Below, piece by piece: positions 7,612 to 57,438 of a DNA stretch of 64,000 nucleotides (position 1 is the stretch's first letter; each line of letters opens with the position of its first letter). The translations under genes were made by a program, and so were the position numbers. Source of the stretch: Yponomeuta sedellus (Eukaryota > Arthropoda > Insecta > Lepidoptera > Yponomeutidae); the NCBI GenBank assembly GCA_934045075.1, contig OW203738.1:4827487-4891486 (forward strand), read 5' to 3'. The notes below the pieces were generated by a model, which did not search any database, was not told the origin of the DNA, and was given only the letters and a program-made list of their open reading frames with translations.

Positions 7612-7623
7612 AAAGGGAAAGAT

Positions 7624-7710
7624 CCCGGCATGGGTGGAATTTTTAGCCTCTAAATAGGTTTTTAAAATTGTCCTTAGCACGGGTTAGTGCATTAAAAATA
7701 AAAATAATAT
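7624..7710 (+). mobile_element. TL308, 87-bp insertion spanning the monomer junction
   Basis: Flanked by the 12-bp duplication AAAGGGAAAGAT at 7612-7623 and 7711-7722. It begins inside the tRNA-like T-arm (CCCGGCATGGGTGG), passes the end of the 308-bp unit (AGCCTCTAAATAGGTTTTTA) and continues without a break into the start of the next unit (CCTTAGCACGGGTTAGTGC), stopping in the internal A-rich stretch. The template must have had at least two units in tandem, or been circular. Confidence 0.8.
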
Positions 7711-7886
7711 AAAGGGAAAGATGTAACCACAGACTATTTAAACTGCCTGGTTAGATAGTGCTGTCTAGAGAATTATCTGATCCCTCTATAGATAATTCTA
7801 GCTTGGGAGTAAGAATCAGACTCAAAAATTGATTCTATCTGAGCCATTCAATTACCCGTACTTTGATAGAAGTATTGCTTTCTGGA

Positions 7887-8514: not shown

Positions 8515-8668
8515 CATAAACGTAACAAAGCAAGGCATAGGCCTTCTGTCTTTGAAATACAGAGCGAGAGAGAGAGAGAGAGAGTATGGGCTTAATCCCA
8601 CCCGTGCCCACCCAATTTTATGCTATGAGGTATTTAAACACCTAAGACACTTAGGTTTCGTCTCGATT
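8515..8668 (-). mobile_element. SINE-B fragment with GA expansion
   Basis: Minus-strand tail and middle of SINE-B (AGGCCTTCTGTC, then TATGGGCTTAATCCCACCCGT and CACCTAAGACACTTAGGTTTC). A run of GA repeats sits where other copies have GAGAGAAGG. The copy is cut at 8670 by the TL308 insertion. Confidence 0.65.
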
Positions 8669-8670
8669 AT

Positions 8671-9002
8671 ACTATTTTTATTTTTAATGCACTAACCCGT
8701 GCTAAGGACAAATTTAAAAACCTATTTAGTGGCTAAAAATTTCACCCATGCCGGGATTCGAACCCGCAACCTCTGGCTATCCGAGCCAGCGCTCTACCAA
8801 TTGAGCCAATGGGCGACTCACCGGCATCAGTGAAATGTCGAACCTCTTTACACTATTCTCTGTATTACGTACAGGCAGCGACATCTCGCTTAGGCAAATT
8901 GCATCACTTACAGCCCCGACTACCTACTTTGATTTTTAGCCTCTAAATAGGTTTTTAAAATTTGTCCTTAGCACGGGTTAGTGCATTAAAAATAAAAATA
9001 GT
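8671..9002 (-). mobile_element. TL308 copy with an inverted second tail
   Basis: A minus-strand unit (complement of the tRNA-like cloverleaf at about 8745-8820) is followed on its right by a plus-strand piece, 8932-9002, that spans the end of one unit and the start of the next. As a result 8671-8740 and 8932-9002 form about 70-bp inverted ends, which mimic a TIR transposon. I see no clear long target-site duplication here. Confidence 0.7.
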
Positions 9003-10990: not shown

Positions 10991-11274
10991 GTTTATAAAA
11001 ATAAAAATAGTATAATCATGTGGGTACAGTGATATCGTTCCGATGTTAAACCTAACTGCAAAGTAGGTAGTCGGGGCTGTAAGTAATGCAATTTGCTTAA
11101 GTCAGATGTCGCTGCCTGCACGTAATACAGAGAATAGTTTAAAGAGGTTCGAAATTTCACTGATGCCGTGAGTCGCCCATTGGCTCAATTGGTAGAGCGC
11201 TGGCACGGATAGCCAGAGTTTGCGGGTTCGAATACCGGCATGGGTGAAATTTTTAGCCTCTAAATAGGTTTTTA
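10991..11274 (+). mobile_element. TL308 monomer, near full length
   Basis: Flanked by AATGGGTAAT at 10981-10990 and 11275-11284. It starts in the internal A-rich stretch, passes ATCATGTGGGTACAGTGATA and AAAGTAGGTAGTCGGGGCTG, then a tRNA-like cloverleaf, and ends AGCCTCTAAATAGG plus a T/A run. The tRNA-like part is therefore near the 3' end, not at the 5' end as in ordinary tRNA SINEs. Confidence 0.85.
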
Positions 11275-11344
11275 AATGGGTAATATCCTAATAATATGAC
11301 AATATTTTTGTTGTAAAAGAACATAGGTAATTTTGGGAGTATGT

Positions 11345-13416: not shown

Positions 13417-13443
13417 GTTTTCGTAACTCTGTTTAGGTGAAAA

Positions 13444-15954
13444 TTGCTGTTTCGGGAGGCAAGCTTATTTTCGTTGGAGAGGCGCTTAGTGTTAAGGGAA
13501 GAGCAGCAGCGTTTGGGGGCTGGCGGTACTGGAGTTAAAAAGTACTGCAACAAGCGCAACCTTGTTACATTCTACAACGAAAGGGGAGTTATATCCAGGA
13601 TAATGGATCAGCTCATGTCGGCGGGATCGGTGGGGGTTGTCAAACTCGAGGGGCAACGAAACTGGAGTCTGTGGAAGTTTCAAATGACGGTGCTATTAAG
13701 ATCGTTAGACTTGCTGTCAGTCGTGAACGGCACGGAAGTGAAGTCTGAGGAAAACGCAGTTGGGTGGTTTAAAAAGGATGCAAAAGCTCAGGGATTGCTC
13801 GTCAGTAGATTGTCTGAAAGTGCGATGGTCCACATTACGACCTGTGAGACGGCGACTCAGATGTGGAACAAATTACTGACCATATATGAGCAGAAGTCAA
13901 ACACGAGTACTCATATTATTCAACAACGCTTCTTCAGCTTTAAATATGAAGATGGGATGGCCTTGTCAACGTTCGTCTCAAAAATACAAGAGATGGCTAG
14001 TCAACTGAAACAAGCTGGAGAGGAAGTGTCTGAGAAGTTTCTCATGACGAAGGTACTCATGTCATTACCAGAGAAATATGTACATTTTATCTCGGCATGG
14101 GAGTCGGTTGATCCAGCGCGTCAAAACCTGGATGACCTGGTTGGAAGATTGTTGATGGAGGAGGATAGGTTGAGGAGTAGATTGACTTATCCGGAGAATA
14201 GCAGAGACAACAATATCGCTTTAGCTGCAAAAAGAGAAGCAAAGTGCTTCAAATGCAATCGAGTGGGACATATAGCAAAAGATTGCAGAAGTAACAAGGA
14301 AACCCGGAGATGTTTCCTGTGCAATAAAGCTGGTCATTTAAAATCGCACTGCCCGAAGACTAATGCGAATAATAAATCGGGTTTTAACAAGGATGACAAT
14401 GCATTCCCGGTTATGACAGCAAATGCGATGACTACTGACAGCGGACTTCATGTAGTTCCAACAAGCAAATGGATTATAGACAGTGGCGCAAGTCAACACA
14501 TGACTTCTGAGAGAATCCTTTTTACGTCATTCAATGAGACGTCAGATCGATTTGTTGTGGTTGGTGATGGGCGAAAATTACCAGTATTAGGAAATGGAGA
14601 TATATTATTCGAGGGCAATAAACTAAGCGACGTTTTGTTCGTACCAGAGTTGAAATTAAACTTGTTTTCGGTATCTTGTGCGACAAGTAAAGGGTACACA
14701 GTTAATTTGTTGCTGGACAAATGCCTAATAAAGATAAATGGTAAAGTATGTGCATCCGGATTTAGGGAAGAAAGTTTTTATGTTATGAACTTCACGAGAA
14801 ACGATGCTCAATGCGCGGCAGTCTCGTTAAGCGAGTGGCATGAGCGACTTTGTCACCAGAACATGGAGCAACCACTCGAACAATTGGAGATATCGCAGGA
14901 AGTACTGAACAGTGAAAGACACCAAGAGCAGGTAGACAGAGAGAATCTGCAAGTAACATCAGAGACAGAAAATGAGACTGGAAGCGAAACTTTTGAGTCA
15001 GCCGAGGAGATTGAAGAGCCGATAAGGACAAGATCAGGCAGAGTAGTGAACCGTCCTAGACTATTGGATGATTATATACTTGTTGCAGGCGAAGGTGAAC
15101 CTGAAAATTACAAAGAAGCAATGAAAAGAGAGGATGCTGATAACTGGAAAAAAGCGATAGACAAGGAGCTAGAACAACTACAAGAAAAGAATACCTGGAC
15201 ATTAAAAGAGAAGGTGCCAGAAGGTCAAGAGATCATCAGTACTAAGTGGGTACTACGGCTAAAACAAGATCATAAAGGAGAAATAATCTATAAAGCAAGG
15301 TTGGTGGCGCGAGGATTCCAACAGAGTGACCTTGATGATCTTGATCTTTACGCCCCAGTGGTAAAGCTTAATACATTCAGGATCTTCACAGCGGTGGCTA
15401 CTAGGTTGAACTGTAGAATAAATCAATTGGATGTTTGTAACGCTTTTTTAAACAGCAAAATTGACGAGGTAGTTTACTTAAAAATGCCAGAGGGCGTAGA
15501 CACTAAGTATAAGTACTGCAAACTAAACAAGTCAATTTATGGTTTAAAAAGATCTCCAAAATATTGGAACGAAACTTTTGATGCGGTCATGAGGGCGGAG
15601 GGGTTTAAAAGCTCTGACAAAGATTATTGCCTGTATTCAAAAAATGAAAACGGTAACAAAACTTTCTTGCTACTGTATGTTGATGACATTCTTTATTTCA
15701 GTACGTGTGAAAAAGAGTTGTCAAAGTTGAGAGAAAGTTTGACTAACGCTTTTAAGCTGAGAGACATGGGACATGTGGGCAATTTTCTGGGGATTGAGGT
15801 GAAGCAGGATTTGGTCAAGGGCTACACAACAATATGTCAAAAAGAGTACTTAAAAAAGATAATATCCTATTATGGTATGACTGATTGTAAACCTTTGTCT
15901 TTGCCCATTGATAAGAATTTTCAATTTGATTTACTAAAAAAAAGAAAAGTCTGA
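13444..15954 (+). CDS. Copia Gag-Pro-RT polyprotein lacking integrase
   Basis: Reads 836 residues; the natural start is probably Met54 (13603), where similarity to Copia Gag (VKLEGQRNWSLWKFQMTVLL) begins. Two CCHC zinc knuckles follow, CFKCNRVGHIAKDC near residue 268 and CFLCNKAGHLKSHC near 290, then the aspartic protease motif DSGA near 346. A Gag-pre-integrase stub (WHERLCHQN, 465-473) is joined directly to a linker that precedes reverse transcriptase, so the HHCC and DDE parts of integrase are gone. RT shows NWKKAIDKELEQL, QLDVCNAFLN and the catalytic YVDD near 745. The frame ends early at TGA (15952-15954) just after an A8 run (15936-15943); the C-terminal RT and RNase H continue in the next frame. 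The protein could package and reverse-transcribe only with help, and integration would need integrase from elsewhere. Confidence 0.9.
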   Translation: MLFREASLFSLERRLVLREEQQRLGAGGTGVKKYCNKRNLVTFYNERGVISRIMDQLMSAGSVGVVKLEGQRNWSLWKFQMTVLLRSLDLLSVVNGTEVKSEENAVGWFKKDAKAQGLLVSRLSESAMVHITTCETATQMWNKLLTIYEQKSNTSTHIIQQRFFSFKYEDGMALSTFVSKIQEMASQLKQAGEEVSEKFLMTKVLMSLPEKYVHFISAWESVDPARQNLDDLVGRLLMEEDRLRSRLTYPENSRDNNIALAAKREAKCFKCNRVGHIAKDCRSNKETRRCFLCNKAGHLKSHCPKTNANNKSGFNKDDNAFPVMTANAMTTDSGLHVVPTSKWIIDSGASQHMTSERILFTSFNETSDRFVVVGDGRKLPVLGNGDILFEGNKLSDVLFVPELKLNLFSVSCATSKGYTVNLLLDKCLIKINGKVCASGFREESFYVMNFTRNDAQCAAVSLSEWHERLCHQNMEQPLEQLEISQEVLNSERHQEQVDRENLQVTSETENETGSETFESAEEIEEPIRTRSGRVVNRPRLLDDYILVAGEGEPENYKEAMKREDADNWKKAIDKELEQLQEKNTWTLKEKVPEGQEIISTKWVLRLKQDHKGEIIYKARLVARGFQQSDLDDLDLYAPVVKLNTFRIFTAVATRLNCRINQLDVCNAFLNSKIDEVVYLKMPEGVDTKYKYCKLNKSIYGLKRSPKYWNETFDAVMRAEGFKSSDKDYCLYSKNENGNKTFLLLYVDDILYFSTCEKELSKLRESLTNAFKLRDMGHVGNFLGIEVKQDLVKGYTTICQKEYLKKIISYYGMTDCKPLSLPIDKNFQFDLLKKRKV

Positions 15955-15955
15955 C

Positions 15956-16621
15956 AGTCAGTTTGAATATAAGTGCAGAGCACTTATTGGGAAACTATTA
16001 TATGTAGTTACTGGTTCTAGGCCAGATTTATGTGTTGTAGTTAATATGTTGAGCAGATACGTCTGTTGCGCTAGTCAACTACTCCATAAAATGTTACTAA
16101 ATGTACTAAGGTACATACAGGGAACGATAGATTTGTGTCTAACGTATTACAGGGATTGTAATGAGGGCGTAACATGCCATGTTGATAGTGACTGGGGGGG
16201 GAGTGATGATAGAAAATCTACAACAGGGTATTGTTTCAAATTATTTGGGTGTTCTGTCATTTGGGTATCAAAAAAGCAACAATCTGTGTCTCTGTCGTCA
16301 ACAGAAGCTGAGTATATTGCTCTAAGCCATGCTACGAGTGAAGCCTGCTGGCTGAAATCAATATTAAAAGATTTCGACATAGATTTGGGGCCTATTGTAG
16401 TTTATGAAGATAACCAGTCTACTATCAAAATGGCTCACATGGCTACTGGAAATACAAGAGTTAAACACTTAGATATTAAACAAAGATTTGTAAAAGAAAA
16501 AATCGACAATAACATTATTGTATTGAAGTACGTAAGTTCCAGTAACCAAATTGCCGATATTTTAACTAAACCCCTGGGTGGTATAATGTTTAAAGATTTA
16601 AGAGGAAGGTTGTTTAGTTAG
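15956..16621 (+). pseudogene. Copia RT C-terminus and RNase H, frameshifted
   Basis: Continues the Copia polyprotein one base out of frame. Before the first ATG (16046) the frame already reads SQFEYKCRALIGKLLY and TGSRPDLCVVV, typical of the RT-RNase H linker. RNase H follows: CHVDSDWGGSDDRKSTTGYC, then SLSSTEAEYIALSHATSEAC, YEDNQSTIKMA and QIADILTKPLGG. The acidic residues expected of Copia RNase H (D in VDSDW, E in STEAEY, D in YEDNQS) are present. A single-base indel in the A8 run at 15936-15943 explains the shift; whether it is a mutation or a programmed frameshift is not decidable here, but I know of no Copia family with a programmed shift at this site. Confidence 0.85.
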
Positions 16622-17743: not shown

Positions 17744-17751
17744 TATAAAGC

Positions 17752-18049
17752 ACGGGTTAGTGCATTAAAAATAAAAATAGTATAATCATGTGGGTACAAT
17801 GATATCATACCGATGTAAAAACCTAACTGCAAAGTAGGTGGTCGGGGCTGTAAGTGATGCAATTTACTTCAGCCAGATGTCGCTGCCTGTACGTAATACA
17901 GAGAATGGTGTAAAGAGGTTCGAAATTTCACTGATGCCGGTGAGTCGCCCATTAGCTCAGTTGGAAAGAGCGCTGGCACGGAAAGCCAGAGGTCGCGGGT
18001 TCGAATCCCGGCATGGGTGGAATTTTAGCCTTTAAATAGGTTTTTATAG
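17752..18049 (+). mobile_element. TL308 monomer, almost complete
   Basis: Flanked by TATAAAGC at 17744-17751 and 18050-18057. It starts at ACGGGTTAGTGC, about 14 bases into the unit, and ends after the AAATAGGTTTTTA tail. The tRNA-like cloverleaf (from CGCCCATTAGCTCAGTTGG) lies about 35 bases from the 3' end. Confidence 0.85.
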
Positions 18050-20066: not shown

Positions 20067-20252
20067 GTTGGTTATTTTTACTTACGCTTAATGTGTGTTA
20101 TTGTTTGCTTTGTTTTTATTGGCAAACTAACTTGCTTACGTCTACATAATGTTTAAGTAATATTGAAATGTCAGTATTGTATCTACAATTAGCTCTAAAT
20201 CGCTAAATCTGTACATATTATGTTAACCTAAATAAATAAAATAAAAATAATT

Positions 20253-20978
20253 ACACCATTTTAATTTTTAATGCACTAACCCGTGCTAAGGAACAAATTT
20301 AAAAACCTATTTAGAGGCTAAAAATTTCACCCATGCCGGGATTCGAACCCGCAACCTCTGGCTATCCGTACCAGCGCTCTACCAATTGAGCCAATGGGCG
20401 ACTCACGACATCAGTGAAATTTCGGACCTCTTTACAATATTCTCTGTATTACGTACAGGCAGCGACATCTGACTTAAGCAAATTGCATTACTTACAGCCC
20501 CGACTACCTACTTTACGTAATACAGAGAATATTGTAAAGAGGTCCGAAATTTCACTGATGTCGTGAGTCGCCCATTGGCTCAATTGGTAGAGCGCTGGTA
20601 CGGATAGCCAGAGGTTGCGGGTTCGAATCCCGGCATGGGTGAAATTTTTAGCCTCTAAATAGGTTTTTAAATTTGTTCCTTAGCACGGGTTAGTGCATTA
20701 AAAATTAAAATGGTGTAATCATGTGGGTACAGTGATATCGTTCCGATGTTAAACCTAACTGCAAAGTAGGTAGTCGGGGCTGTAAGTAATGCAATTTGCT
20801 TAAGTCAGATGTCGCTGCCTGTACGTAATACAGAGAATATTGTAAAGAGGTCCGAAATTTCACTGATGTCGTGAGTCGCCCATTGGCTCAATTGGTAGAG
20901 CGCTGGTACGGATAGCCAGAGGTTGCGGGTTCGAATCCCGGCATGGGTGAAATTTTTAGCCTCTAAATAGGTTTTTAA
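20253..20978. mobile_element. TL308 composite: inverted unit plus two forward units in one insertion
   Basis: The 12-bp duplication ATAAAAATAATT at 20241-20252 and 20979-20990 brackets the whole 726 bp. From left to right: a minus-strand stretch running across a unit junction (20253-20513), then a plus-strand partial unit (about 20514-20671), then a full plus-strand unit to the AAATAGGTTTTTAA end. Arms 20251-20455 and 20514-20718 are inverted copies of about 205 bp around a 58-base spacer. One target duplication for the whole array implies a single integration event from a multimeric template. Confidence 0.85.
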
Positions 20979-21239
20979 ATAAAAATAATTGTAATAGTAA
21001 TACGGAGCGTTTTTGCTGTGATGACGGTCACTGGCACTTGTGAGCCTGAGGGTGCCTCGTGTTAGAGGCGAAACGCGTCTCGTGTTTTCTCACACAAGTA
21101 TTGGTGTCGGTGGCGGTGTGTTCGTGACTTGCTTCTGCTTGAAAAAGTGGAGGGGAGGGCGGTGCATTAACTAACCTCATGGTGCTTGTGGGATTTTTGG
21201 CGGAATTTAGCAAAGCAAATTTTCACTTTTTAATGCTAA

Positions 21240-22559: not shown

Positions 22560-22806
22560 TATATAAATATAAATATTCATGGACATATTGCACAGATCTT
22601 GTTAGCCCTATACTAAGTACAACTAAATGACTTGTGTTATAGGTGCTAACTCGATGATAGATTAAATACAATAAATACATAGATAACATCCAAAACCCGA
22701 GACAAACTAGAAAAGTTCGTTTCCTTGTTTGACCCGGCCGGGGTTCGAACCCGAGACCTTCGGTTTCACAGACAGCGTGCCAAACCGCTACGCCACCGGG
22801 GTCGTC
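22560..22806 (-). mobile_element. SINE-E copy 2
   Basis: Full head (GTGGCGTAGCGGTTTGGC) and body to AATATTCATGGACATATTGC; tail short. Confidence 0.85.
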
Positions 22807-23035: not shown

Positions 23036-23195
23036 TAGGTGTCCCGAGACAAACTAGAAAAGTTCGTTTCCTAGTTTGACCCAGCCGGGGGTCGAACCCG
23101 AGACCTTCGGTGGTACAGTTACAACCGAAGGTCTCGGGTTCGATCCACGCTGAGTGCAGCGTGCCAAACCGCTGCGCCACCGAGGCCGTCAAACG
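23036..23195 (-). mobile_element. SINE-E copy 3 with inverted duplication of the B box
   Basis: Head and start of the body only. The B-box segment is duplicated in reverse: 23092-23111 and 23124-23143 are 20-bp inverted partners (containing GAACCCGAGACCTTCGG) around a 12-base loop, so a B box now exists on both strands. Confidence 0.75.
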
Positions 23196-23242
23196 AGTCT
23201 AATAATGACTATTTATTGCCAGTGTTGAATTAAACTATCTTT

Positions 23243-24382
23243 ACACTATTTTTATTTTTAATGCACTAACCCGTGCCAAGGAACAAATTTAAAAACCTAT
23301 TTAGAGGCTAAAATTTCACCCATGCCGGGATTCGAACCCGCAACCTCTGGCTATCCGTACCAGCGCTCTACCAATTGAGCCAATGGGCGACTCACGGCAT
23401 CAGTGAAATTTCGAACCTCTTTACAATATTCTCTGTATTACGTACAGGCAGCGACATCTGACTTAAGCAAATTGCATTACTTACAGCCCCGACCACCTAC
23501 TTTGCAGTTAGGTTTTAACATCGGAACGATATCACTGTACCCACATGATTACACTATTTTTATTTTTAATGCACTAACCCGTGCTAAGGAACAAATTTAA
23601 AAACCTATTTAGAGGCTAAAATTTCACCCATGCCGGGATTCTTTGCTTTGCCGTGCCGTGAGTCGCCCATTGGCTCAATTGGTAGAGCGTTGGTACGGAT
23701 AGCCAGAGGTTGCGGGTTCGAATCCCGGCATGGGTGAAATTTTAGCCTATAAATAGGTTTTTAAATTTGTTCCTTAGCACGGGTTAGTGCATTAAAAATA
23801 AAAATAGTGTAATCATGTGGGTACAGTGATATCGTTCCGATGTTAAAACCTAACTGCAAAGTAGGTGGTCGGGGCTGTAAGTAATGCAATTTGCTTAAGT
23901 CAGATGTCGCTGCCTGTACGTAATACAGAGAATATTGTAAAGAGGTTCGAAATTTCACTGATGCCGTGAGTCGCCCATTGGCTCAATTGGTAGAGCGCTG
24001 GTACGGATAGCCAGAGGTTGCGGGTTCGAATCCCGGCATGGGTGAAATTTTAGCCTCTAAATAGGTTTTGAAATTTGTTCCTTAGCACGGGTTAGTGCAT
24101 TAAAAATAAAAATAGTGTAATCATGTGGGTACAGTGATATCGTTCCGATGTTAAAACCTAACTGCAAAGTAGGTGGTCGGGGCTGTAAGTAATGCAATTT
24201 GCTTAAGTCAGATGTCGCTGCCTGTACGTAATACAGAGAATATTGTAAAGAGGTTCGAAATTTCACTGATGCCGTGAGTCGCCCATTGGTTCAATTGGTA
24301 GAGCGCTGGTACGGATAGCCAGAGGTTGCGGGTTCGAATCCCGGCATGGGTGAAATTTTAGCCTCTAAATAGGTTTTTAAAT
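23243..24382. mobile_element. TL308 composite: inverted dimer plus forward trimer in one insertion
   Basis: The 13-bp duplication TTAAACTATCTTT at 23230-23242 and 24383-24395 brackets all 1140 bp. Left part, minus strand: one full unit plus parts of its two neighbours (23243-23641). Right part, plus strand: a partial unit, then two full units of exactly 308 bp each, whose starts (TTTGTTCCTTAGCACGG) are at 23766 and 24074. Arms 23241-23641 and 23720-24120 are near-perfect inverted copies of 401 bp with a 78-base spacer. The same meaningless 65-codon frame appears three times because of this structure. Confidence 0.9.
23972..24044 (+). other. tRNA-like cloverleaf inside TL308
   Basis: Acceptor strands CGCCCAT and ATGGGTG pair over 7 bp (one G-T). 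The D stem is GCTC/GAGC with loop AATTGGTA, the anticodon stem CTGGT/GCCAG has the 7-base loop ACGGATA, and the T arm GCGGG-TTCGAAT-CCCGG has one mismatch. A-box-like TGGCTCAATTGG and B-box-like GGTTCGAATCC are intact. Position 33 is C rather than U, and the fold lies 29 bases from the unit's 3' end. It is not a translation tRNA; it could act as an internal promoter or as a structural end. Confidence 0.7.
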
Positions 24383-24395
24383 TTAAACTATCTTT

Positions 24396-24672
24396 TTCGA
24401 TAAATTTAGTGATTTAGTATCGGCCTGTATCTATTGTATTCGAAACAGTCTCTTGCATTATTGAATTATTTTTCAGACTAATTAAGTCACAACAATGCGA
24501 TACGACGGTAGGGGCGGTCTTGATCAAACCAATTTATCAGAGGTACTTATTGAAGATAGATGAAATTGATATTTTGTTAACGTTAAACGAATGATAATGA
24601 ACGTGGCTTGCAATAAGAATATGAAACTAGTACTCGTCGGAAACGTTTCAGATTTTGTTTTTTTTCGATATA
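24396..24672. other. Unassigned sequence
   Basis: No repeat or frame recognised. Confidence 0.4.
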
Positions 24673-27769: not shown

Positions 27770-28165
27770 TCGGTTGTCTGGAAGAAATTACTCTACGAAA
27801 TAAGGCCGTCAATTGTGTTGCATCTTTGTAAATATTTTATGATTATACTATTGCGGGTACAGCGATATCATTCCGATGTAAAAACTTAACTGCAAAGTAG
27901 GTACTCGGGGCTGTAAGTAATGCAATCTACTTCAGGCAGATGTCGCTGCCTGTACGTAATACAGAGAATAGTGTAAAGAGGTTCGAAATTTCACTGATGC
28001 TGGTGAGTCGCCCATTAGCTCAGTTGGAAAGAGCGCTGGCTGGCACGGATAGCCAGAGGTCGCGGGTTCGAATCCCGGCATCGGTGGAATTTTAGCCTCT
28101 AAATAGGTTTTTAAAATATTTTATGTTTGATTTTTCTGGTGTAAAATTTCTATATAGAATATTCT
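27770..28165 (+). mobile_element. LINE 3'-end module interrupted by TL308
   Basis: GGTTGTCTGGAAGAAATTAC, then ATAAGGCCGTCAATTGTG; the continuation after the TL308 insertion runs to AGAATATTCTTATGTTATC, matching 59040-59165. Confidence 0.7.
27842..28113 (+). mobile_element. TL308 monomer inside a LINE 3' end
   Basis: AAATATTTTATG at 27830-27841 and 28114-28125 is the target duplication. The copy starts ATTATACTATTGCGGGTAC, at the internal breakpoint used by the composite copies, and ends AAATAGGTTTTTAA. CTGG is doubled in the anticodon stem. Confidence 0.85.
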
Positions 28166-30036: not shown

Positions 30037-30291
30037 ATATTCCATCAATTACTGATAAAATATTCTGAACCGGTATCTTTGATTACATTGTCTGCTTGTA
30101 GGGTCAATTGAACATCAATCCGATAAATACTCGTAAACTGATTTTGTGCACGCAGCTGGAAGGTCTATGAATGTTGATAATCAAATCAGCAATCAGAGAT
30201 CTAGTCAGTCTATGTACGTAAGCAATATTATTGTCCAGTCTGTCTTATTTTATCCACAAATACATGATATATAGGTATTTAATCAATCGTT

Positions 30292-30457
30292 GTGAACTGA
30301 AAGAGGATGTAGTGACAAGAATTGAGAAATGAATGTTGCCTTGGCTTGGACATTGGAGAGGATGAAGGAAGAAATATTGACGAAGGAAATCAAGATCGTG
30401 GCAAGTGGCAGTCCCTGCGTGGTCTCTGGCTACTCCTCTGGGATACAGGCGTGAGGT
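30292..30457 (+). mobile_element. RTE-type LINE 3' end with internal deletion
   Basis: Same family as 9596-9945: GAACTGAAAGAGGATGTAGTG, GGATGAAGGAAGAAATATTGAC, then a jump to GATCGTGGCAAGTGGCAGTC and GGGATACAGGCGTGAGG. The central 150 bases are missing. Its TATG tail is the left edge of the GTAT array. Confidence 0.8.
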
Positions 30458-30753
30458 TATGTATGTATGTATGTATGTATGTATGTATGTATGTATGTAT
30501 GTATGTATGTATGTATGTATGTATGTATGTATGTATGTATGTATGTATGTATGTATGTATGTATGTATGTATGTATGTATGTATGTATGTATGTATGTAT
30601 GTATGTATGTATGTATGTATGTATGTATGTATGTATGTATGTATGTATGTATGTATGTATGTATGTATGTATGTATGTATGTATGTATGTATGTATGTAT
30701 GTATGTATGTATGTATGTATGTATGTATGTATGTATGTATGTATGTATGTATG

Positions 30754-30784
<31 letters not shown>

Positions 30785-30825
30785 GTATGTATGTATGTAT
30801 GTATGTATGTATGTATGTATGTATG
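30458..30825 (+). repeat. GTAT tetranucleotide array, about 92 units
   Basis: Uninterrupted except for one A at 30784 (GTAAGTATG). Three plus-strand frames and the minus strand stay open only because the repeat lacks stop codons in those frames; the Met-Tyr-Val-Cys and His-Thr-Tyr-Ile polymers are not genes. Grew from the tail of the RTE LINE on its left. Confidence 0.95.
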
Positions 30826-30828
30826 AGA

Positions 30829-30945
30829 AATCAATCAGTACACGTTGGATACACGTCCATTGCTGGATTCAGGCGTCCCTCAACGCACGCCACTTCCTTC
30901 AGTCGTTGGCCATCCTCATCCACCCTCGGATCGTCGGACCATATA
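30829..30945 (-). mobile_element. RTE-type LINE, 3' terminal fragment facing the array
   Basis: Minus-strand coding remnants of the W-x-R-x-A-N-D-W-R-K-W-R type followed by QQW-like residues, in broken frames. Its 3' end also touches the GTAT array, so two LINE ends converge there. Confidence 0.55.
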
Positions 30946-31860
30946 GTTGCTGATGGTTTGTTTTTTTTTTTCCTAAGCTGCGTTTGCCAGTTCGTGATAT
31001 CCACTTGAGTGGAGACCACCTTTCCACGACGTCGAAAATAGGTTCTTCGGCTTAATCGGGCCATTGTGGATTAACTATTGGTTGTCATCAACCAAAGTGC
31101 ATCTTTGCTGTTTGATGTAGAAATCTTTTGGTTTATTGCTATTGTTTTACCTAAATGTTGTTCTACCCGCAATTTCAAACGATTTAAATAAAACTTGGAT
31201 AGTATCTGGGACCTAATTGCGTTCACCGGATCCTGTTAGAACCATGGTATTTGTGATAGCAATTTATATGGGATTTGACAAATACTCGACCGCTCAGCAT
31301 TTGATGCGCGTAATGTAGGAGCAGATTATTGTTAATGAAAAAAGGAAAGAAAGTGTAGTTTTATCTAAATTTGCTGAATTTACTCAAATTTAAATTTGAC
31401 TTAACGATAATCGAAGGGGGCGTTAGAAACCATAATACACGATCTACCTAGCTTGGTTTCTAATGTGATAGAAAATTACGTATACTTAATATTTAAGTGA
31501 AACTGTAAACTAGCATAATTTGACACGTATACCGATGTCTGTTGCTCAATAAATATCTTTATCTTTATAATGTGACCAGCCTACTGCCACTTCACCTTTT
31601 GCATGCTAATCTTATAGGGTGTCAGTTACCTTAGTTCTATCCTCCTAAGCCGTCGAGGTAACAGTTACTTCAAGACTTCTAAAACTACGTAGATTTTGAA
31701 GAACTTTTTCTTGTTATCCAAAAAATGATGAGGAAAATATTGGACCTGGAACAGTAAGTTTTCCGGACTTCCTACTAAATCATTGGGTGTAAATTAAGAA
31801 AGTTATTCGTGGTGTCCTATTTCTAGGACGCCAGGGCTTTGGAGGCTATGGCGGTTTGTC
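30946..31860. other. Unassigned sequence
   Basis: A T-run at 30959-30972 and AT-rich sequence; nothing coding. Confidence 0.4.
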
Positions 31861-32017: not shown

Positions 32018-34817
32018 TCAATTCAATTCAATTCAATTTATTTCAACGTAAAGAATTTACATTCTGTTTGCTGAATGTCAAAGTACAATGTAACATGAAA
32101 GTGAAAGCCGCTGCCTTCGGGCCGTAATGTAGTGGAGAAAAAGGCAGCGGGAAAAAAAAACTCCACTCTGACCATCTTTTCTCAAGTCTTAAATCTAATA
32201 CATTAGATACCACCTATACGCATAAGATTCCATGATTGCCATTAATAACTTTAAATGTTAAGGCATTATTAAATAAATATACTTTTTTTACATAGGCCGT
32301 GAAAACATGACAAGTGCTGCAGCCAGACACACGAACAGCACTCGTTCACGAGCATAACGCAGAGGTCAGCCATCATCAGTCTCAACCATTTTGGAGGGAG
32401 ATAGATGACCCGGCCACCACGCCACCATTCGAATGACCTTTAGCAAACCTGCAGATTAAGTTTTTGTCAGTTATAGAATGTATGATATATTTACTAATAT
32501 GCAATCACGTCGTCTGTACAAACTTAAATTAAAATATGACATACATAACTAACACTGAGGATTGCAGTGATTCGGTTGCTACATATAAAATATTTATTTA
32601 ATAACTATGATTTACTCGTTGTGGAATTGGTCTACTGCCAAGGGCTTACATCATTTGTAAAGTCATCTATTCTATAATAGGCCTTTTTACACAGCGCCTT
32701 TTTAATGAAATTTTTAAATTTGCTGTCAGGCAGGGATAGAATATGTTCTGGAATTTTATTGTAAAAACGTACACTTAGTCCTACAAAAGATGCATTTACC
32801 TTGGCTAATCTGAATTTAGATAAAGCAACTTTGTTTCTGTTTCTAGTGTTTACGTTATGGATATCCCTGTTTAATTTAAATGTTGTTAAGTTTTTTCGTA
32901 CATACATTATGTTATCGAATATATATTGGCAAGCCATCGTTAGAATTCTGATTTCCTTGAAAATATCCCTTAGCGATTGCCTGGTAGGTAAATTGTAGAT
33001 AGCTCTAACAGCCCTTTTTTGTAGAATAAAAACTGTTTCTATATCTGCCGCACGCCCCCATAGTAACAAACCATATGACATAATACTGTGAAAATAACTG
33101 AAATATACAAGCCTCGCAGTTGACACATCTGTTAGTTGCCTAATTTTTCTAACTGCAAATGCGGCTGAACTTAACCTACCCGCTAGATTTTTTATGTGTG
33201 GACCCCATTGCAGTTTCGAGTCTATTGTAATACCTAAAAACACCGTGGACTCTACTAAGTCTAGTCTGTCACCAGCTATAATTAAACTTGTGTCCACTTT
33301 TTTTACATTGGGCAATGAAAACTTTATACATTTTGTCTTTTTCGCATTCAACATGAGATTGTTTACAGTAAACCAGTTTAACACTTTAGAAAGGGTGTTG
33401 TTTACATCGTCTAGATTAGATTGACCTCTCTTGATTTTAAAAATTAGAGAAGTATCGTCTGCAAACAATACTATTTGTGACAATTTCTCAACTAGGTAGG
33501 GCAGATCATTTACATATACTAAGAAGAGGAAAGGCCCCAAAATAGAACCCTGAGGAACTCCTATTTTAACATCAGATCCAGAAGACTTAACCCTATTTAT
33601 GTCAACTTTCTGAACTCTGTATGCTAAATATGATTGAAGAAGAGCTAGAGATCCATTACTGAGACCGTATCTATTCAATTTACAAAGGAGCGTTTTATGG
33701 TCTACACAATCAAAAGCTTTAGAAAGGTCACAGAAAACTCCAATAGCATCCTGCGCCTCCTCCCACGCGTCAAAGATGTGATTCATTAATGCCACTCCTG
33801 CGTCGGTCTTTGAACGACCCTTAGTGAAACCGAATTGTTTTTTATGAAAGAGTTTATTTAAACTAAAGTGTGTCAACAATTGGTGTAAAATTAGTTTCTC
33901 AAACACTTTACTTAATACCGGTAGTATTGCTATGGGCCTAAAATTGTTTGGATCCTCATTATCACCTGCCTTAAATAGAGGAACTATTTTACTAAATTTT
34001 AAGAGATCCGGGAAAGTCCCATGATCAACACATTTATTAAAAATTGTAGCAAGGTGTGGTGCAATAATATGAATTACCGTGGATATCAGTTTGACCGACA
34101 TACCCCACAAGTCTTCAGTTTTCTTTATATTTATTTGGTTAAATGTTTTAACAATAGTTTGGAAGCTAACGTGGGAAAATTGAAAGTCTGTTACGCATGG
34201 TTTTATATTTTCTAACATTAGTGATTCTGCTGACTGAGACGAAGAATTTAAGCCCGCCGTTATATTTAGTGGGATGTTTGTGAAGAAATTTTCGAATACT
34301 TTTGCGATTTCGTCACTTGAGTTGACTATTTTCCCACTTACCTTTAGCGCAAAACTTTGATCCCTCGGTTTTGTTTTGCCTGTCTCCTTGTTAATCACTT
34401 GCCAAGTAGTTTTTATTTTATTTGAAGACGCCTTTATCTTTTTGCTTATATTAAGGGATTTTGCCATAGAACAGGTTTTCCTAAAGGTTTTAGAGTAATT
34501 CTTAACAAATTCTCTAAAGCTTGGATCCGGATTGGATTGCTTTTCTTCATACAATTCATACAATCTTTTCCTACTTCTATGTATACCAGGAGTGGCCCAT
34601 TCTGAAAAACCATTATTACTGAGCTGAATTTTTTTAATTTTAAAAACCTGTTCAAATTCGTTTGATATCGTGGTAAACAATTCATTATATAAAGTGTTGG
34701 GATCATTGCTATCAAATTGCAGTAAACCTATTTTGGTACCTAATTTATTTTTGAATAATTCAATTTTTTTGTCTGTGAAGTTGTTCAATACAGGCATATT
34801 GCCTGTATTGAACAACT
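32018..34817 (-). mobile_element. LINE-A, 5'-truncated, pentanucleotide tail
   Basis: Contains the reverse transcriptase ORF (32632-34815) and a roughly 600-bp 3' UTR that ends in ATTGA-type repeats (seen as ATTCA repeats at 32018-32040). Endonuclease and ORF1 are missing. At the 5' end, 34779-34796 is repeated inverted at 34800-34817. A shared 3' UTR copy is at 25838. Confidence 0.8.
32632..34815 (-). CDS. LINE-A reverse transcriptase, N-terminally truncated
   Basis: An uninterrupted 727-codon frame, but its first codon is not an ATG and the endonuclease is absent, so it is a fragment of a longer ORF2. RT landmarks in order: an N-terminal linker (EWATPGIHRSRKRLYEL, residues 50-70), FRPIAILPVLSKVFEKLI, KKQFGFTKGRSKTDAGV, VFCDLSKAFDCVDH (catalytic Asp), GVPQGSILGPFLFLVYVND and the catalytic LFADDTSLIF at about 33456. 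The thumb and C-terminal region (VFLGITIDSKLQWGPHIK, RLVYFSYFHSIMSYGLLLWG, NVNTRNRNK) are complete. No RNase H. This fits the Jockey/CR1 group of LINEs; the clade is not certain. Closely related to LINE-B at 35848. The lack of stops suggests a fairly young insertion. Confidence 0.85.
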   Translation of the reverse strand: MFNTGNMPVLNNFTDKKIELFKNKLGTKIGLLQFDSNDPNTLYNELFTTISNEFEQVFKIKKIQLSNNGFSEWATPGIHRSRKRLYELYEEKQSNPDPSFREFVKNYSKTFRKTCSMAKSLNISKKIKASSNKIKTTWQVINKETGKTKPRDQSFALKVSGKIVNSSDEIAKVFENFFTNIPLNITAGLNSSSQSAESLMLENIKPCVTDFQFSHVSFQTIVKTFNQINIKKTEDLWGMSVKLISTVIHIIAPHLATIFNKCVDHGTFPDLLKFSKIVPLFKAGDNEDPNNFRPIAILPVLSKVFEKLILHQLLTHFSLNKLFHKKQFGFTKGRSKTDAGVALMNHIFDAWEEAQDAIGVFCDLSKAFDCVDHKTLLCKLNRYGLSNGSLALLQSYLAYRVQKVDINRVKSSGSDVKIGVPQGSILGPFLFLVYVNDLPYLVEKLSQIVLFADDTSLIFKIKRGQSNLDDVNNTLSKVLNWFTVNNLMLNAKKTKCIKFSLPNVKKVDTSLIIAGDRLDLVESTVFLGITIDSKLQWGPHIKNLAGRLSSAAFAVRKIRQLTDVSTARLVYFSYFHSIMSYGLLLWGRAADIETVFILQKRAVRAIYNLPTRQSLRDIFKEIRILTMACQYIFDNIMYVRKNLTTFKLNRDIHNVNTRNRNKVALSKFRLAKVNASFVGLSVRFYNKIPEHILSLPDSKFKNFIKKALCKKAYYRIDDFTNDVSPWQ

Positions 34818-37872: not shown

Positions 37873-38700
37873 TTTTCATTTATAAATTTTATAATCTTTA
37901 AAAATGTAAAATTATGCGAGCGAAGCAGCATGTTCCACGTAGCCTTAAACTGAAGTTTTCAAACTTGAATGTATTGTTTGTGTGGGTAGCTATATTGCGC
38001 GTTAGTGTTCCATATTGTTAATCTGTGGGTTTATCGGCTTTGCAATGTACATCACACAAGCATAATAAACTACGATTTATAGTTTTTCGAAACACGTCCC
38101 CAGGCATTGCGACGCACAGTTTGGGAAGCCCCGCTCTAGACGATTAGGTAAAGTCGACTCTGTTCCAGTGCTTGGCTGAAAGCATATTGTGCCTTTACAA
38201 AGTCTTTTTGTAGTCGTTATAGTGCCACCCGGCGTCAGCGTTGCAGTTTTAAAATAGCATCATTGCATATTCAAGTGTTGGCGGAGTGCTTTATTTAGTA
38301 CCTGCTTCCGCCACCATTGGTATAAGTAGAATATTTACGTCTGCACGGAGTTTACCGTGGCGGTTTTAGGGTTCTCTCCCCGAAGGGTTCCAAGGGTGAC
38401 CTCATTGCCTACGACTTCTGTCTGTCTGTCCGTCTGACTTATAAAGGTCGAGGTAGGGGCATAGTTGAAATTTCCACATAACAAGTCGTCGGTGATCAAA
38501 CGAAAGTCGGTGGTTTTCGATTCCTTATCAAATTGTATGAAAAATTCAAAATAAGAAAGTTAGCAAGATATCATGATCCTTACCCGATTAGGCTAAAGTT
38601 TAGAATGTCTCTCACTTGCATTAAGAATCACGTTTTTCTGCAATTTAGATGAAAAAAAGAAACTCATAATATTTTGAGGTATGACATTTTTATATTCTTT
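37873..38700. other. Unassigned sequence with a CTGTCTGTC patch
   Basis: CTGTCTGTCTGTCCGTCTG at about 38421-38440, followed by AAGGTCGAGGTAGGGG, looks repeat-derived, but I cannot name the family. No ORF. Confidence 0.4.
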
Positions 38701-38704
38701 TTGT

Positions 38705-38820
38705 TGCACTAACTCGCGCTGAGCACAAATTGAAAAACTTATTTAGAGGCTAAAACTTCCGACCATGCCGGGACTCGAACCAGCGACCTCTGGTTGGTCT
38801 GGTCGCTAACCGTACCGTAT
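38705..38820 (-). mobile_element. Old, diverged TL308 fragment
   Basis: GCACTAACTCGCGCTGAGC, AACTTATTTAGAGGCTAAAA and GCCGGGACTCGAACCAGCGAC match the TL308 unit end, the next unit's start and the T-arm, across the junction, with many substitutions. Shows that junction-spanning copies are not only recent. Confidence 0.65.
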
Positions 38821-48551: not shown

Positions 48552-48796
48552 TAAATTAATATTTATGGACATATTACACAGATCTCGTTAGCTGTATACT
48601 AAGTACAATTAAGTGACTTATGTTATAAGTGCTAACTCGACGATAGATTTAATACAATAAATACATAGATAACATCCAAGACCCGAGACAAACTAGAAAA
48701 GTTCGTTTCCTAGTTTGACCCGGCCGGGGCTCAAACCCGAGACCTTCTGTTTTACAGACAGCGTGCCAAACCGCTGCGCCACCGAGGCCGTCATAA
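48552..48796 (-). mobile_element. SINE-E copy 4
   Basis: Head on the right (GGTGGCGCAGCGGTTTGGC in complement), body to ATTTATGGACATATTACAC. Confidence 0.85.
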
Positions 48797-49921: not shown

Positions 49922-50435
49922 ATCGTCCCCACAGCTGGGGCACGGGTCTTTTCCTGCATCGCAGGAATGTTAGGCCATACTCCACCACGGGGGCAGAGTC
50001 CGGGTTAGTGCAGGATTGTAAGACATGGCGGGCCTTACTGTCAGAAGTTATCAAGCCGCCACTAAGGCCTCTGACATGGCTTAACGACTCCAAGCCACTA
50101 CAAGACAGCCGGCACCAACGGCTCAACATGCCTTGCGAAGCACGGAAGCGCTCGGAAATATGCCACTAGCAGTAGACACGGGACGGTGACCTATCCTGCA
50201 CTTGACCGCGCCTGTTGTTGCTTAACAAGTGATTGATTTCAAAAACCTACTTAGAGGCTAAAAATTCCACCCATGCCGGGATTCGAACCCGCGACCTCTG
50301 GCTATCAGTGCCAGCGCCAACTGAGCTAATGGGCGACTCACCGGCATCAGTGAAATTTCGAACCTCTTTACAATACTCTGTATTACGTACAGAAGTGATT
50401 GATTCCAATCACTCGGTTTTTGGGCTACGAGAGCT
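49922..50435 (-). mobile_element. 5S-SINE, full length, interrupted by TL308
   Basis: Directly abuts the previous copy. Tail GGGGCACGGGTCTTTTCCTG, complete body and head (ACGGGACGGTGACCTATCC, TTGTTGCTTAAC). The head is split at 50227-50404 by a TL308 insertion. Shares diagnostic bases (CACAGCTGGGG, GGGGGCAGAGTCCGGG) with the copy at 52758. Confidence 0.85.
50239..50392 (-). mobile_element. TL308, 5'-truncated, nested in a 5S-SINE
   Basis: AAGTGATTGATT at 50227-50238 and 50393-50404 is the target duplication. In element orientation it starts CTGTACGTAATACAGAG and ends AGCCTCTAAGTAGGTTTTTG. Its tRNA-like anticodon arm has a small deletion. Confidence 0.85.
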
Positions 50436-54528: not shown

Positions 54529-57438
54529 TTAACATAAATTGTCCCTATAACATATAACAAACAGTGCTATTCTCTTGAATTCACTCAGAGCAACATGGAA
54601 TAAGTCAACCTGTTCCGATATAATGTTCAAAATGCGGCAAGCGCGTGTCAGCGGCGCGTGAGCCAGCAGGTTGGTGCGCGCGCGCGGCACGTGCAGCAGC
54701 GGCGGCCGGCGGCGGCGCCCCACGTACCCGTCCGGTACACACAGATTTAAGGCACCCAGTACCTCCGGATTGCTAATCCTTCCCTCGAGCACTTTATGCA
54801 CATAGGAAACCAACGCGAGATCCCTCCTCACTCTAAGCTCGTTGTACCCTACCATTCCCAGGATAAAAAGTGTAGGGTACATCAAGGGATAAAACGGATA
54901 AACTCCATATAACCTTAAGTACAAATATCTTATGAATTTATTTTGAATGCGTTCCATCATGAGACAATATTTTGTCTCATGAGGTGCCCAGATGATTGCA
55001 TTCGATTCAAGTTGGCTTCTAACTAGAGCGTTATAAAGAGCAATTATGGCAGCAACGTTTGAAAACGTACGGCCCTTACGAAGAATAAAGCCCAAATTCC
55101 TGTATGCCTTTTTGCAGATACTCTCAATTTGTGTGCGATAGTTTAAGTCTGAAGTCAATCTGACCCCCAGGTCTTTGACGTCACTTACTCGCCGAATTGG
55201 TGTATCTGCTACTGTATAATTATACATTACAGAATTTCGTTTCCGAGTAAAAGTAATTAGAGCGCATTTGGAGACGTTGAACTGTAGCTTATTTTGGTGG
55301 CTCCACTGTACTACTCTATCTATGTCGTCCTGTAACTTCTCACAATCTGAAACAGAGCACACTGGTAATGAAAGCTTCAAGTCGTCTGCAAACAACAAAC
55401 AATTTGAATCTTTCACTACTGTTGATAGGTCATTTATCATGATCAAGAATTCAAGTGGCCCCAAATTGCTACCCTGGCTGACTCCCGACCTAGTGAAATA
55501 AGGTTCTGAGCGATGTCCATTATACTCTACATATTGTTTTCTGTCTCCCATGTAACTAATGAAAAACTTGAGTAGATGTGGAGTAAAACCCATATTCGCT
55601 AATTTACTAAGTAAAACATCGTTGTCAACTAGATCAAATGCTTTTTTGTAATCAAAGTAGGCAGCATCCACCTGGCCCCCAGTATCCACTGCTGGGATTA
55701 CCTTTGACATAAAGCTAAGGAGATTACTATATGTGCTACGAGTAGGCCGGAAGCCATGCTGAGCATCCGACAATTGAGACTCAACTTGATAGAGTACCGT
55801 CTTTTGGATCGCAGATTCCAACACTTTAGCGGGTGTGGAAAGTACAGCTACCGGCCTATATCCATCTACGTTTGAACTAGCTCTTCCTTTGGGAACAGGT
55901 ATTACTCTGGTTATTTTCCACCGCTCCGGAAAAACTTCCGCTGCCAAACACTGATTATAAATATGTGCTAATGGTTCTGCTAAAACCATACGACAATCCC
56001 GCACAATATACGTTGGAATACCATCGGGTCCCGCCGACCGCTTCGGTTTAAGACGTGCTAGTGCGCTACGTACTTCCTCCAGTTGTAAGCGGTCCACCTG
56101 TACTCGTGCTGCGGTTGCCTCTGCGTCCGCCATCGCTGCCGAGACATCCATCGTAGCTCGATCCCGCGAGTACACCGAGTGAAAGTAAGCCGCGAATTCC
56201 TGGGCGCACTCCTTCCCGCACAATACCTGGCCATTTTTAATAATTTTTTGCTGACTCCGATTGCCCTTCATTGACCTTATATAGCTCCAGAATGCTCTTG
56301 GATCCTCAATTAAATGATTCTGAACGCGATCTCGATACTGTTCCTGAGCCAATTGAATTGAAGTTTTCACCTTTGCTCTGTATATTGAAAATTGTTTGTA
56401 GTCTAATAAAGATTTACTATACTTAAATTTCTTGTGAAGTTCAGCTTTTAATTTGATGTCGCGAATCAGATCCCTTGTATACCACTCTGGGTAATTGTAC
56501 TCAGAGTTTATACATACTCGCTTTTTTTTTGGAACACAATCATCGAAAATATTACTCAATTTACTATAGAAGAAATCTAGGCAACTGTCTACGTTATCCA
56601 AATCATAAAGAGGCGCCCAGTCCACTTCCGCTATCGCCGCATATAAAGAAAAGAAATCCGCTTTAGCAAAATTCCAATTGTTTGCGGCGGCGGCGGCGAC
56701 ACTATCATCAGTGCGGCGGTGAACCCGAGCGCGGCCATACATCGATAAAGATACCTCCAGTGGCGGGTGATACGCGTCTACCGGCAATAGTGGCACCTCT
56801 GCCGCGCGCACGCACACACCCGAAACCTCCCCGCTAAACTTGCATAAAACTAAATCAAGTTGACGATCGTTGCAATTACCAATCATGTTGCTCTGAGTGA
56901 ATCCACAGTATGATAGAAAATACTCATAATAATTACGTACTTCCAACGTACTCGAATAGAGGTTAAAATCGCCCACAATTACTATTTTACTATATTTATC
57001 ACAATATTGTTCAATTAATTTAAACATTAACACATACTCAGTTTCCTTACTATTTGGTGGGATATTAACACAACACATTAAAAACAGCAGTCTCTTTTGC
57101 AAGTACACCGTACCAGCCGCTAGCTCAAAAACATGTTCATCTACATTTACACTACCCGGCGGCGCTGCGACTGTGCGAATCTCAAATCGAGGTGTGGCCA
57201 CGAGACAAACTCCACCTTGCTTGCGGCCGTCCGCTCTATCGCAGCGGAGGATTGTAAATCCTTGCGGAACAATTTCTGCGTCCTGTATGGATTCAGTACA
57301 GCCGGTTTCCGTAAACGCAAAGAAATCTGCCGACGAAGAAAGAAACTCTGCGTTTAAGCCTTCTAGTTTTGTTCGCAATCCTCTAACATTTTGGTAATAT
57401 AATGTGTATTCATGCTTGACTTTTTGCTTTGGTTGCAT
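54529..57438 (-). CDS. LINE-C ORF2, endonuclease and reverse transcriptase
   Basis: A complete 969-codon frame from an ATG at 57438. Residues about 10-235 are an APE-type endonuclease: YYQNVRGLRTK, FAFTETGC (catalytic Glu), KIVIVGDFNLYSS, RQLDLVLCK and DAYHPPLEV (the Asp-His pair). A linker (ICINSEYNYPEWYT-like) leads to RT: LKPKRSAGPDGIPTYIV, YRPVAVLSTPAKVLESAIQK, AQHGFRPTRSTYSNL, DAAYFDYKKAFDLVDNDVL, GVSQGSNLGPLEFLIMINDL and the catalytic LLFADDLKL (codons at 55381-55392). The C-terminal part is about 200 residues, without RNase H or a clear zinc finger. It fits the Jockey/CR1 group. The ATG lies inside ORF1, with 29 bases of overlap, so translation probably needs reinitiation or stop-restart. 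No stop or frameshift is visible: the protein could be functional if expressed, although the 5' end of the element is lost. Confidence 0.9.
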   Translation of the reverse strand: MQPKQKVKHEYTLYYQNVRGLRTKLEGLNAEFLSSSADFFAFTETGCTESIQDAEIVPQGFTILRCDRADGRKQGGVCLVATPRFEIRTVAAPPGSVNVDEHVFELAAGTVYLQKRLLFLMCCVNIPPNSKETEYVLMFKLIEQYCDKYSKIVIVGDFNLYSSTLEVRNYYEYFLSYCGFTQSNMIGNCNDRQLDLVLCKFSGEVSGVCVRAAEVPLLPVDAYHPPLEVSLSMYGRARVHRRTDDSVAAAAANNWNFAKADFFSLYAAIAEVDWAPLYDLDNVDSCLDFFYSKLSNIFDDCVPKKKRVCINSEYNYPEWYTRDLIRDIKLKAELHKKFKYSKSLLDYKQFSIYRAKVKTSIQLAQEQYRDRVQNHLIEDPRAFWSYIRSMKGNRSQQKIIKNGQVLCGKECAQEFAAYFHSVYSRDRATMDVSAAMADAEATAARVQVDRLQLEEVRSALARLKPKRSAGPDGIPTYIVRDCRMVLAEPLAHIYNQCLAAEVFPERWKITRVIPVPKGRASSNVDGYRPVAVLSTPAKVLESAIQKTVLYQVESQLSDAQHGFRPTRSTYSNLLSFMSKVIPAVDTGGQVDAAYFDYKKAFDLVDNDVLLSKLANMGFTPHLLKFFISYMGDRKQYVEYNGHRSEPYFTRSGVSQGSNLGPLEFLIMINDLSTVVKDSNCLLFADDLKLSLPVCSVSDCEKLQDDIDRVVQWSHQNKLQFNVSKCALITFTRKRNSVMYNYTVADTPIRRVSDVKDLGVRLTSDLNYRTQIESICKKAYRNLGFILRKGRTFSNVAAIIALYNALVRSQLESNAIIWAPHETKYCLMMERIQNKFIRYLYLRLYGVYPFYPLMYPTLFILGMVGYNELRVRRDLALVSYVHKVLEGRISNPEVLGALNLCVPDGYVGRRRRPPLLHVPRARTNLLAHAPLTRACRILNIISEQVDLFHVALSEFKRIALFVICYRDNLC

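Follow-up and report, generated by a model that had tools for sequence, protein, structure and literature searches.

In vitro, reverse transcription by the Penelope-like element (PLE) of Anolis begins at two adjacent internal sites, both target strands are cut and extended, and the start sites are used alike on each strand; a dimer is predicted, and the stretch between the two start sites is the long-known PLE "tail" (PMC11167929, in the sections available to us). A strict rule of one start of each kind is not described in those sections. In rotifers, direct and inverted PLE repeats lie within one target duplication, mostly head-to-head and with the tail on one of them, and the authors prefer self-priming on an antisense template as the explanation (PMC3846280, available sections). 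Metazoan non-LTR retrozymes have low-GC units of about 150-450 bp that occur as dimers to multimers, with target duplications longer than 4 bp and circular RNA intermediates (PMC7229834, available sections), and PLEs have been proposed as retrozyme helpers on the basis of shared hammerheads and co-occurrence (PMC7761336, available sections). For the heliconiine SINEs Metulj and ZenoSINE, the 3' tails served to assign RTE or Zenon LINEs as their partners (PMC6685494, available sections).

The repeat family described here, TL308, has a 308-bp unit and was found as a 1140-bp array at 23243-24382 of the window, which is the whole 64,000-nucleotide stretch of Yponomeuta sedellus DNA that was analysed. 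A sequence-only reading had claimed a head-to-head array of 308-bp units bounded by a single 13-bp target duplication, and this structure was confirmed exactly. The 13-bp duplication, TTAAACTATCTTT, lies on the plus strand at 23230-23242 (left copy) and 24383-24395 (right copy), and there is no third plus-strand occurrence in the window. Between the two copies are a minus-strand arm of 1.30 units, 5' truncated at unit position u56 and with its 3' end at unit position ~148 (the B arm, 23243-23641; 23241-23641 in the BLAST parse), a 12-base filler at the head-to-head junction (23642-23653), and a plus-strand arm of 2.37 units that runs from u298 to a 3' end at unit position ~102 (the A arm, 23654-24382; to 24384 in the BLAST parse). 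Complementarity between the 401-nt arms (23241-23641 and 23720-24120) is 99%, and direct copies in the array lie 308 bp apart. Within a full unit, the interval from start site A (u~102) to start site B (u~148), at 24075-24120 on the plus strand, is the analogue of the PLE tail.

TL308 was parsed at eight other places in the window, comprising a second head-to-head array and seven further copies. The second array (20247-20980) joins a minus-strand B arm (20247-20514) to a plus-strand A arm (20511-20980) and is flanked by a 14-bp duplication, AAATAAAAATAATT, at 20239-20252 and 20977-20990, both on the plus strand; the ends of the array overlap its duplications by shared bases. Two of the remaining copies end at B or near it on one arm: a plus-strand copy at 7622-7712, with its end at B and the duplication AAAGGGAAAGAT, and an old minus-strand copy at 38695-38793, with its end near B and a 12-bp duplication containing one mismatch. 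Four end at or near A: a one-arm copy with a 10-bp duplication and a short filler (10996-11277, plus strand), an older one-arm copy ending near A with an 8-bp duplication (17749-18044, plus strand), a copy in which an 11-nt inverted B arm, ATTATACTATT, was recognised by eye beside the left duplication (27842-28115, plus strand), and an old one-arm copy with the flanks AAGTGATTGATT (50236-50392, minus strand). The head-to-head copy at 8665-9002, whose two ends both lie near B and which lacks a clear duplication, breaks the rule, established below, that an insertion ends in one A and one B.

The TL308 unit consists of a tRNA-like, Pol III-promoter-like domain and a body of about 236 nt. All four tRNA-like stretches of the array at 23243-24382 were detected by both ARAGORN and Rfam: 23315-23390 on the minus strand (ARAGORN Ser GGA; Rfam tRNA, 38 bits), and 23663-23738 (35.5 bits), 23971-24046 (38 bits) and 24279-24354 (33.3 bits) on the plus strand. 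The unit has an A-box-like match at u7, a B-box match at u51 and a T5 run at 94-98, and its GC content is 42%. To our knowledge TL308 has no long open reading frame, unlike PLEs. When the unit was compared with the window, no match appeared beyond its own copies and a 33-nt stretch of tRNA region, and one 30-base pattern used to look for a TL308 relative in viral_contigs gave 0 exact matches. The absence of a hammerhead, which the sequence-only reading had reported, holds: Rfam lists no ribozyme family at E≤10 over 23200-24420, and the CTGANGA..GAAA hammerhead core is absent from both strands of the doubled unit. No circularising signal, ribozyme or other, was found in TL308. The circular fold of the unit has a free energy of -93, compared with -72 ± 8 for 50 shuffles; compensation across copies is weak (4 double changes versus 193 broken cells), and because compensatory changes are nearly lacking despite the free-energy excess, we do not claim a conserved rod structure.

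A 24-base tag from the unit occurs exactly 20,173 times in the 657.5-Mb assembly, and the reversed tag 0 times; the window array is typical of the genome and no one-off. We parsed 85 distinct clusters, from 39 places drawn with a 401-nt query, which favours multi-unit copies, from 30 less biased, mutually overlapping loci that are the first exact 24-mer matches listed on one contig, and from the window. Left out were L001-L008, which repeat the same places, and clusters shorter than 60 nt or lying 60 nt or less from a locus edge, for example in L033. The 85 clusters are made up of 49 simple two-arm, 32 one-arm and 4 complex clusters, and the two-arm counts that follow leave out the 4 complex clusters and the 32 with one arm, of which 29 were typed as A or B and 3 were not. 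One-arm copies are thus common, a single arm with an A or B end accounting for 29 of the 85 clusters, and only a few of them carry a short concealed second arm, seen by eye, of ~13 nt in L066 and ~22 nt in L045.

The simple two-arm clusters are all head-to-head (49/49), with 0 tail-to-tail pairs. Their outer ends fall in two narrow zones, A at u96-107 and B at u136-156, and 44 of the 49 insertions have one of each; of the other five, two combine B with B and three have an end that was not typed. The A+A combination is not seen. On the assumption that A and B are equally likely and independent, the binomial probability of 44 A+B insertions among 46 typed is 3e-11. In the less biased subset the combination is found in 16 of 18 two-arm insertions, and 10 further clusters are one-armed. 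Single arms reach 7.47 units and two-arm insertions 8.6 units. The architecture and the A+B rule, like the border motifs described next, are read directly from the copies.

A direct repeat scoring at least 11 flanks 38 of the 49 two-arm insertions, compared with 2 of 200 control flank pairs, in which left and right flanks came from different loci; the duplication is 12-14 bp long in 31 of the 49. The duplication encloses the arm pair, rather than each unit having a duplication of its own, which supports the earlier claim of a single integration per array. When the 32 clean cases of the 49 two-arm insertions are oriented by the A arm, the borders read ttAAC|A on one side and T|GTTnA on the other, the commonest base at each position being present in 13-23 of the 32. 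Since the two borders resemble each other, each strand seems to have been cut at a similar motif, as a paired endonuclease would do. The earlier proposal that the inverted arm arose by twin priming was not supported by this analysis: among the 46 typed insertions, the inverted arm begins in 44 at one of two fixed sites, opposite to that of its partner. Classical twin priming would give a variable internal start, and in its L1-type form it gives no reason for a similar motif at both borders. The double start in TL308 arrays matches double initiation of the PLE type. The sequence-only reading had picked up neither the two fixed 3' ends nor the tRNA-like domains, the second array, the seven further window copies, the clonality of units or the link to PLEs.

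The units within an insertion are nearly clonal. At 15 variable sites (13 substitutions and 2 run-length differences, picked because they vary), alleles compared across the arms of an insertion were the same in 313 cases and different in 4, and only 29 of 556 site-insertions were mixed, compared with about 170 expected for independently drawn units; the test took in single- and two-arm clusters with arms of at least 94% identity and at least 30 nt. Among insertion-private substitutions covered at least three times, 10 are in all units, 61 in one unit and 2 in some units. From the agreement between arms and the all-or-one pattern of private substitutions, each insertion appears to have been copied from one 308-nt sequence, mutations in single units having come later. 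The concatemeric template that the sequence-only reading had proposed is therefore supported, as a single unit repeated in a concatemer or closed in a circle. Mixed unit lengths, seen in 8 of 24 insertions with at least two measurable units, could be explained by late indels. Where the units run through the start sites they do so cleanly: indels are absent from the 162-165 crossings of u99-103 and from the 120-121 crossings of u147-155; small indels do occur in base runs near the start sites, up to 4.5% at u135-136 and 3% at u106. The indel-free crossings speak against template jumping by the reverse transcriptase from an RNA end to a start site. Judged from the clonal units and the clean crossings, the template seems most simply to have been a circular RNA of one unit.

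Candidate helpers were sought among PLEs. A PLE-endonuclease-like query gave at least 150 matches in the genome, from 2202 first-look candidates, and a PLE N-terminal query at least 67, with 31 of the 67 among the matches listed open over 791 aa without stops. One lineage, PLE2, encodes a protein with an RVT_1 domain that is 40% identical to an Anolis protein over 99% of its length; its best named relatives are lepidopteran, and PF26215 is assigned to PLE2 homologues. Three PLE2 arrays had both outer ends read. Two of these (C1 and C16) follow the A+B rule, with one duplication each, TTATAAAACGTT and TCAGTTTCTTTTTA, and the third (C30) breaks it, its left arm ending at neither site. The similarity of TL308 to PLE2 is weak. 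When their start regions were aligned in register, with the A sites and the B sites superposed, the score was matched by 1 of 2000 shuffles; an unanchored local alignment of TL308 with young PLE2 was not significant, 64 of 500 shuffles reaching its score. An older PLE2 copy, L096, gave scores reached by 5 of 10,000 shuffles anchored and 37 of 2000 unanchored, figures flattered by choice since it is the best-scoring of five extra loci, and among 9,816 real stretches of the window, counted with the TL308 copies, 23 also attain its anchored score. The tail measures about 46 nt in TL308, 36 in PLE2 and 31 in PLE1, and a PLE tail of 30-40 nt, shorter than the ~46 nt of TL308, is given in the available sections of PMC11167929. 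From these sequence comparisons, the helper is likely to be of the PLE2 lineage.

Other candidates fared less well. PLE1 was rejected as helper because it has no start-site similarity to TL308 (878 of 2000 shuffles reach the score); among six PLE1 loci inspected by eye, three have no tail, two have a tail of ~31 nt and one is missing that end. The TL308 start region has no clear counterpart in L094, a third PLE-like N-terminus, and L095 is probably no start region. A hammerhead was found in the PLE1 and PLE2 loci neither by Rfam (E≤1) nor by pattern, a result that is not decisive for the helper question. The sole Pfam PF01541 match over the cut-off, L078 (C23:5488100-5488258), is a real GIY-YIG segment in the other strand; its resemblance is to the host nuclease SLX1 and not to a PLE.

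In our view TL308 is probably a non-autonomous, retrozyme-like element with a tRNA-like domain, which a PLE mobilises by reverse-transcribing an RNA circle from two start sites. The TL308 body would hold two adjacent reverse-transcription start sites of the PLE kind, and a PLE reverse transcriptase-endonuclease acting in trans would nick both target strands at a similar motif, mostly 12-14 bp apart. The two nicked 3' ends would then act as primers on a shared RNA, at A for one end and at B for the other, and A+A insertions would be absent because a circle provides one A and one B. This RNA would in effect have no end, a 308-nt circle being its simplest form, and cDNA synthesis could continue for up to about seven rounds and stop at a variable position, after which the two cDNAs would be joined head to head. 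That the template was RNA and circular, that a PLE2-lineage protein is the agent and that two reverse transcriptase subunits work on one RNA, we infer from the ends, borders and units of the insertions.

The most serious competitor keeps the PLE machinery and its start sites, and replaces the RNA circle by a linear multi-unit transcript from a genomic TL308 array, or by a DNA circle. Multi-copy RNAs are believed to be made from PLE loci, insertion in vitro needs no hammerhead cleavage (PMC11167929, available sections), and the genome holds two-arm insertions as long as 8.6 units. Units of a genomic array mutate singly, however, so a linear array transcript should give intermediate patterns, and what is found instead is agreement across arms (313 same, 4 different) and private substitutions in all units or in one (10 and 61), with only 2 intermediate; A+A is likewise seen in 0 of 49 insertions, although a multimer has many A sites. 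A very young genomic array might still be uniform, and we regard this alternative as unlikely, though with some claim on the data. Later enlargement of one insertion by duplication or unequal crossing-over, or two separate insertions, would fit the differing unit numbers between loci and the known capacity of tandem repeats to expand. Against this stand the single outer duplication per arm pair (38 of 49, versus 2 of 200 controls), the private alleles common to inverted arms, and the finding that 259 of 286 within-locus variable positions (at least three units; gap-placement artefacts included) are carried by a single unit; as variable positions are mostly in a single unit, there is no sign of continuing homogenisation, and this origin is highly improbable.

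It is about equally improbable that TL308 is a tRNA-derived SINE of the usual LINE-mobilised sort, with an inverted arm due to L1-type twin priming; the A+B rule contradicts this reading. The tRNA-like head with its A- and B-box matches, the 12-14 bp duplications of 31 of 49 insertions and the inverted part in many copies are all as such an element would have them, but the inverted arm has a fixed start, unlike that of its partner in 44 of 46 typed cases, the borders share a similar motif, arms reach 7.47 units, and a matching LINE tail sought within the window did not appear. There are two ends instead of a single LINE-shared 3' end. Two ends and multi-unit head-to-head arms mean that TL308 is no standard LINE-mobilised tRNA SINE. 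Least probable is self-priming, in which the inverted arm would arise by fold-back once the reverse transcriptase had copied the first; this has been suggested for PLEs of Adineta vaga, where the inverted junction has palindromes (PMC3846280, available sections). The insertions studied here contradict it. Fold-back arms should meet at the same unit position, yet the truncation points of the two arms lie no more than 5 bases apart in 0 of 49 insertions and no more than 20 apart in 7 of 49, with a median of 75; the two different fixed outer ends would also be left unexplained.

Under the working model of PLE-type double initiation on an RNA circle, TL308 shares with PLEs (Penelope/Poseidon, GIY-YIG type) the combination of direct with inverted arms, mostly head-to-head and enclosed by a single duplication (PMC11167929 and PMC3846280, available sections), as well as two adjacent internal start sites, an optional tail and the cutting and extension of both strands (PMC11167929, same sections); it differs in its 308-nt unit, compared with 2.7 kb, its tRNA-like domain and its ~46-nt tail. 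Like metazoan retrozymes it has short, low-GC, multimeric units and target duplications, the circle being deduced here from sequence; unlike them it has no hammerhead that we could find, carries a tRNA-like domain and is linked to PLEs by its insertion ends. TL308 is no retrozyme by definition, because a hammerhead was not found, and retrozymes are its nearest functional analogue. It resembles Metulj and ZenoSINE in being short, abundant and non-coding, and a related heliconiine family has a likely tRNA-derived 5' half (PMC6685494, available sections). What sets TL308 apart is its pair of 3' ends, its multimers joined head-to-head and a start region like that of PLEs. A search of titles and abstract openings, with subscription journals mostly outside it, yielded, among the papers listed, no tRNA-bearing SINE mobilised by a PLE.

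How a circle might be closed can be approached through the tRNA-like domain. A composite pre-tRNA could form in a dimeric transcript if the 5' half of one tRNA-like domain paired with the 3' half of the next; its "intron" would be exactly one 308-nt unit, and the host tRNA splicing endonuclease and RtcB ligase could then free and close that intron as a circle. A single dimeric PLE complex would engage both start sites of one such circle, one per target strand, and copy it in rolling-circle fashion. Taken as a whole, this picture of a ribozyme-free circular PLE parasite in which the tRNA domain replaces the hammerhead as closing device is quite a long shot.

Should the main proposal be true, the signature of the helper would sit in the insertion ends themselves, beyond shared hammerheads and co-occurrence. 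Reliance of a tRNA-type SINE on a PLE, in place of a LINE, would represent a new life style for SINEs, and an apparently circular template without a ribozyme would point to a possible new route to circular RNA. The one-A-one-B rule recasts the PLE puzzle of a tail on one arm as a model of two reverse transcriptase subunits on one RNA, and with 20,173 exact matches to the tag, a single genome amounts to a large natural experiment.

Several neighbouring features were noted in the window and the loci. Just left of the array, at 23040-23190, lies a different tRNA-related repeat, which contains a 30-nt inverted repeat (23086-23115 and 23120-23149) with a B-box-like sequence. A tRNA-His-like prediction at 22730-22803 and a tRNA-Tyr-like one at 48716-48788 are possibly parts of other SINEs. 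By eye, long ORFs at 13441-16621 have the look of a Copia-type polyprotein split over two frames, and minus-strand ORFs of 979 and 727 aa (54529-57468 and 32632-34815) are LINE-like. A long simple repeat of the tetranucleotide type occupies 30245-31008, with several open frames on both strands. In L081, positions 2401-2539 form a near-perfect inverted repeat, possibly a MITE, with Rfam miRNA-precursor scores below the gathering threshold. In L085 (3805-3971), the right A end of the C30 PLE2 array abuts a two-arm TL308 copy with no visible duplication, a possible composite insertion. At C16:4957587-4958734, three PLE2-type N-terminal pieces, one of them covered by L092, stand in tandem about 420-470 bp apart and are perhaps a second non-autonomous PLE-derived family.
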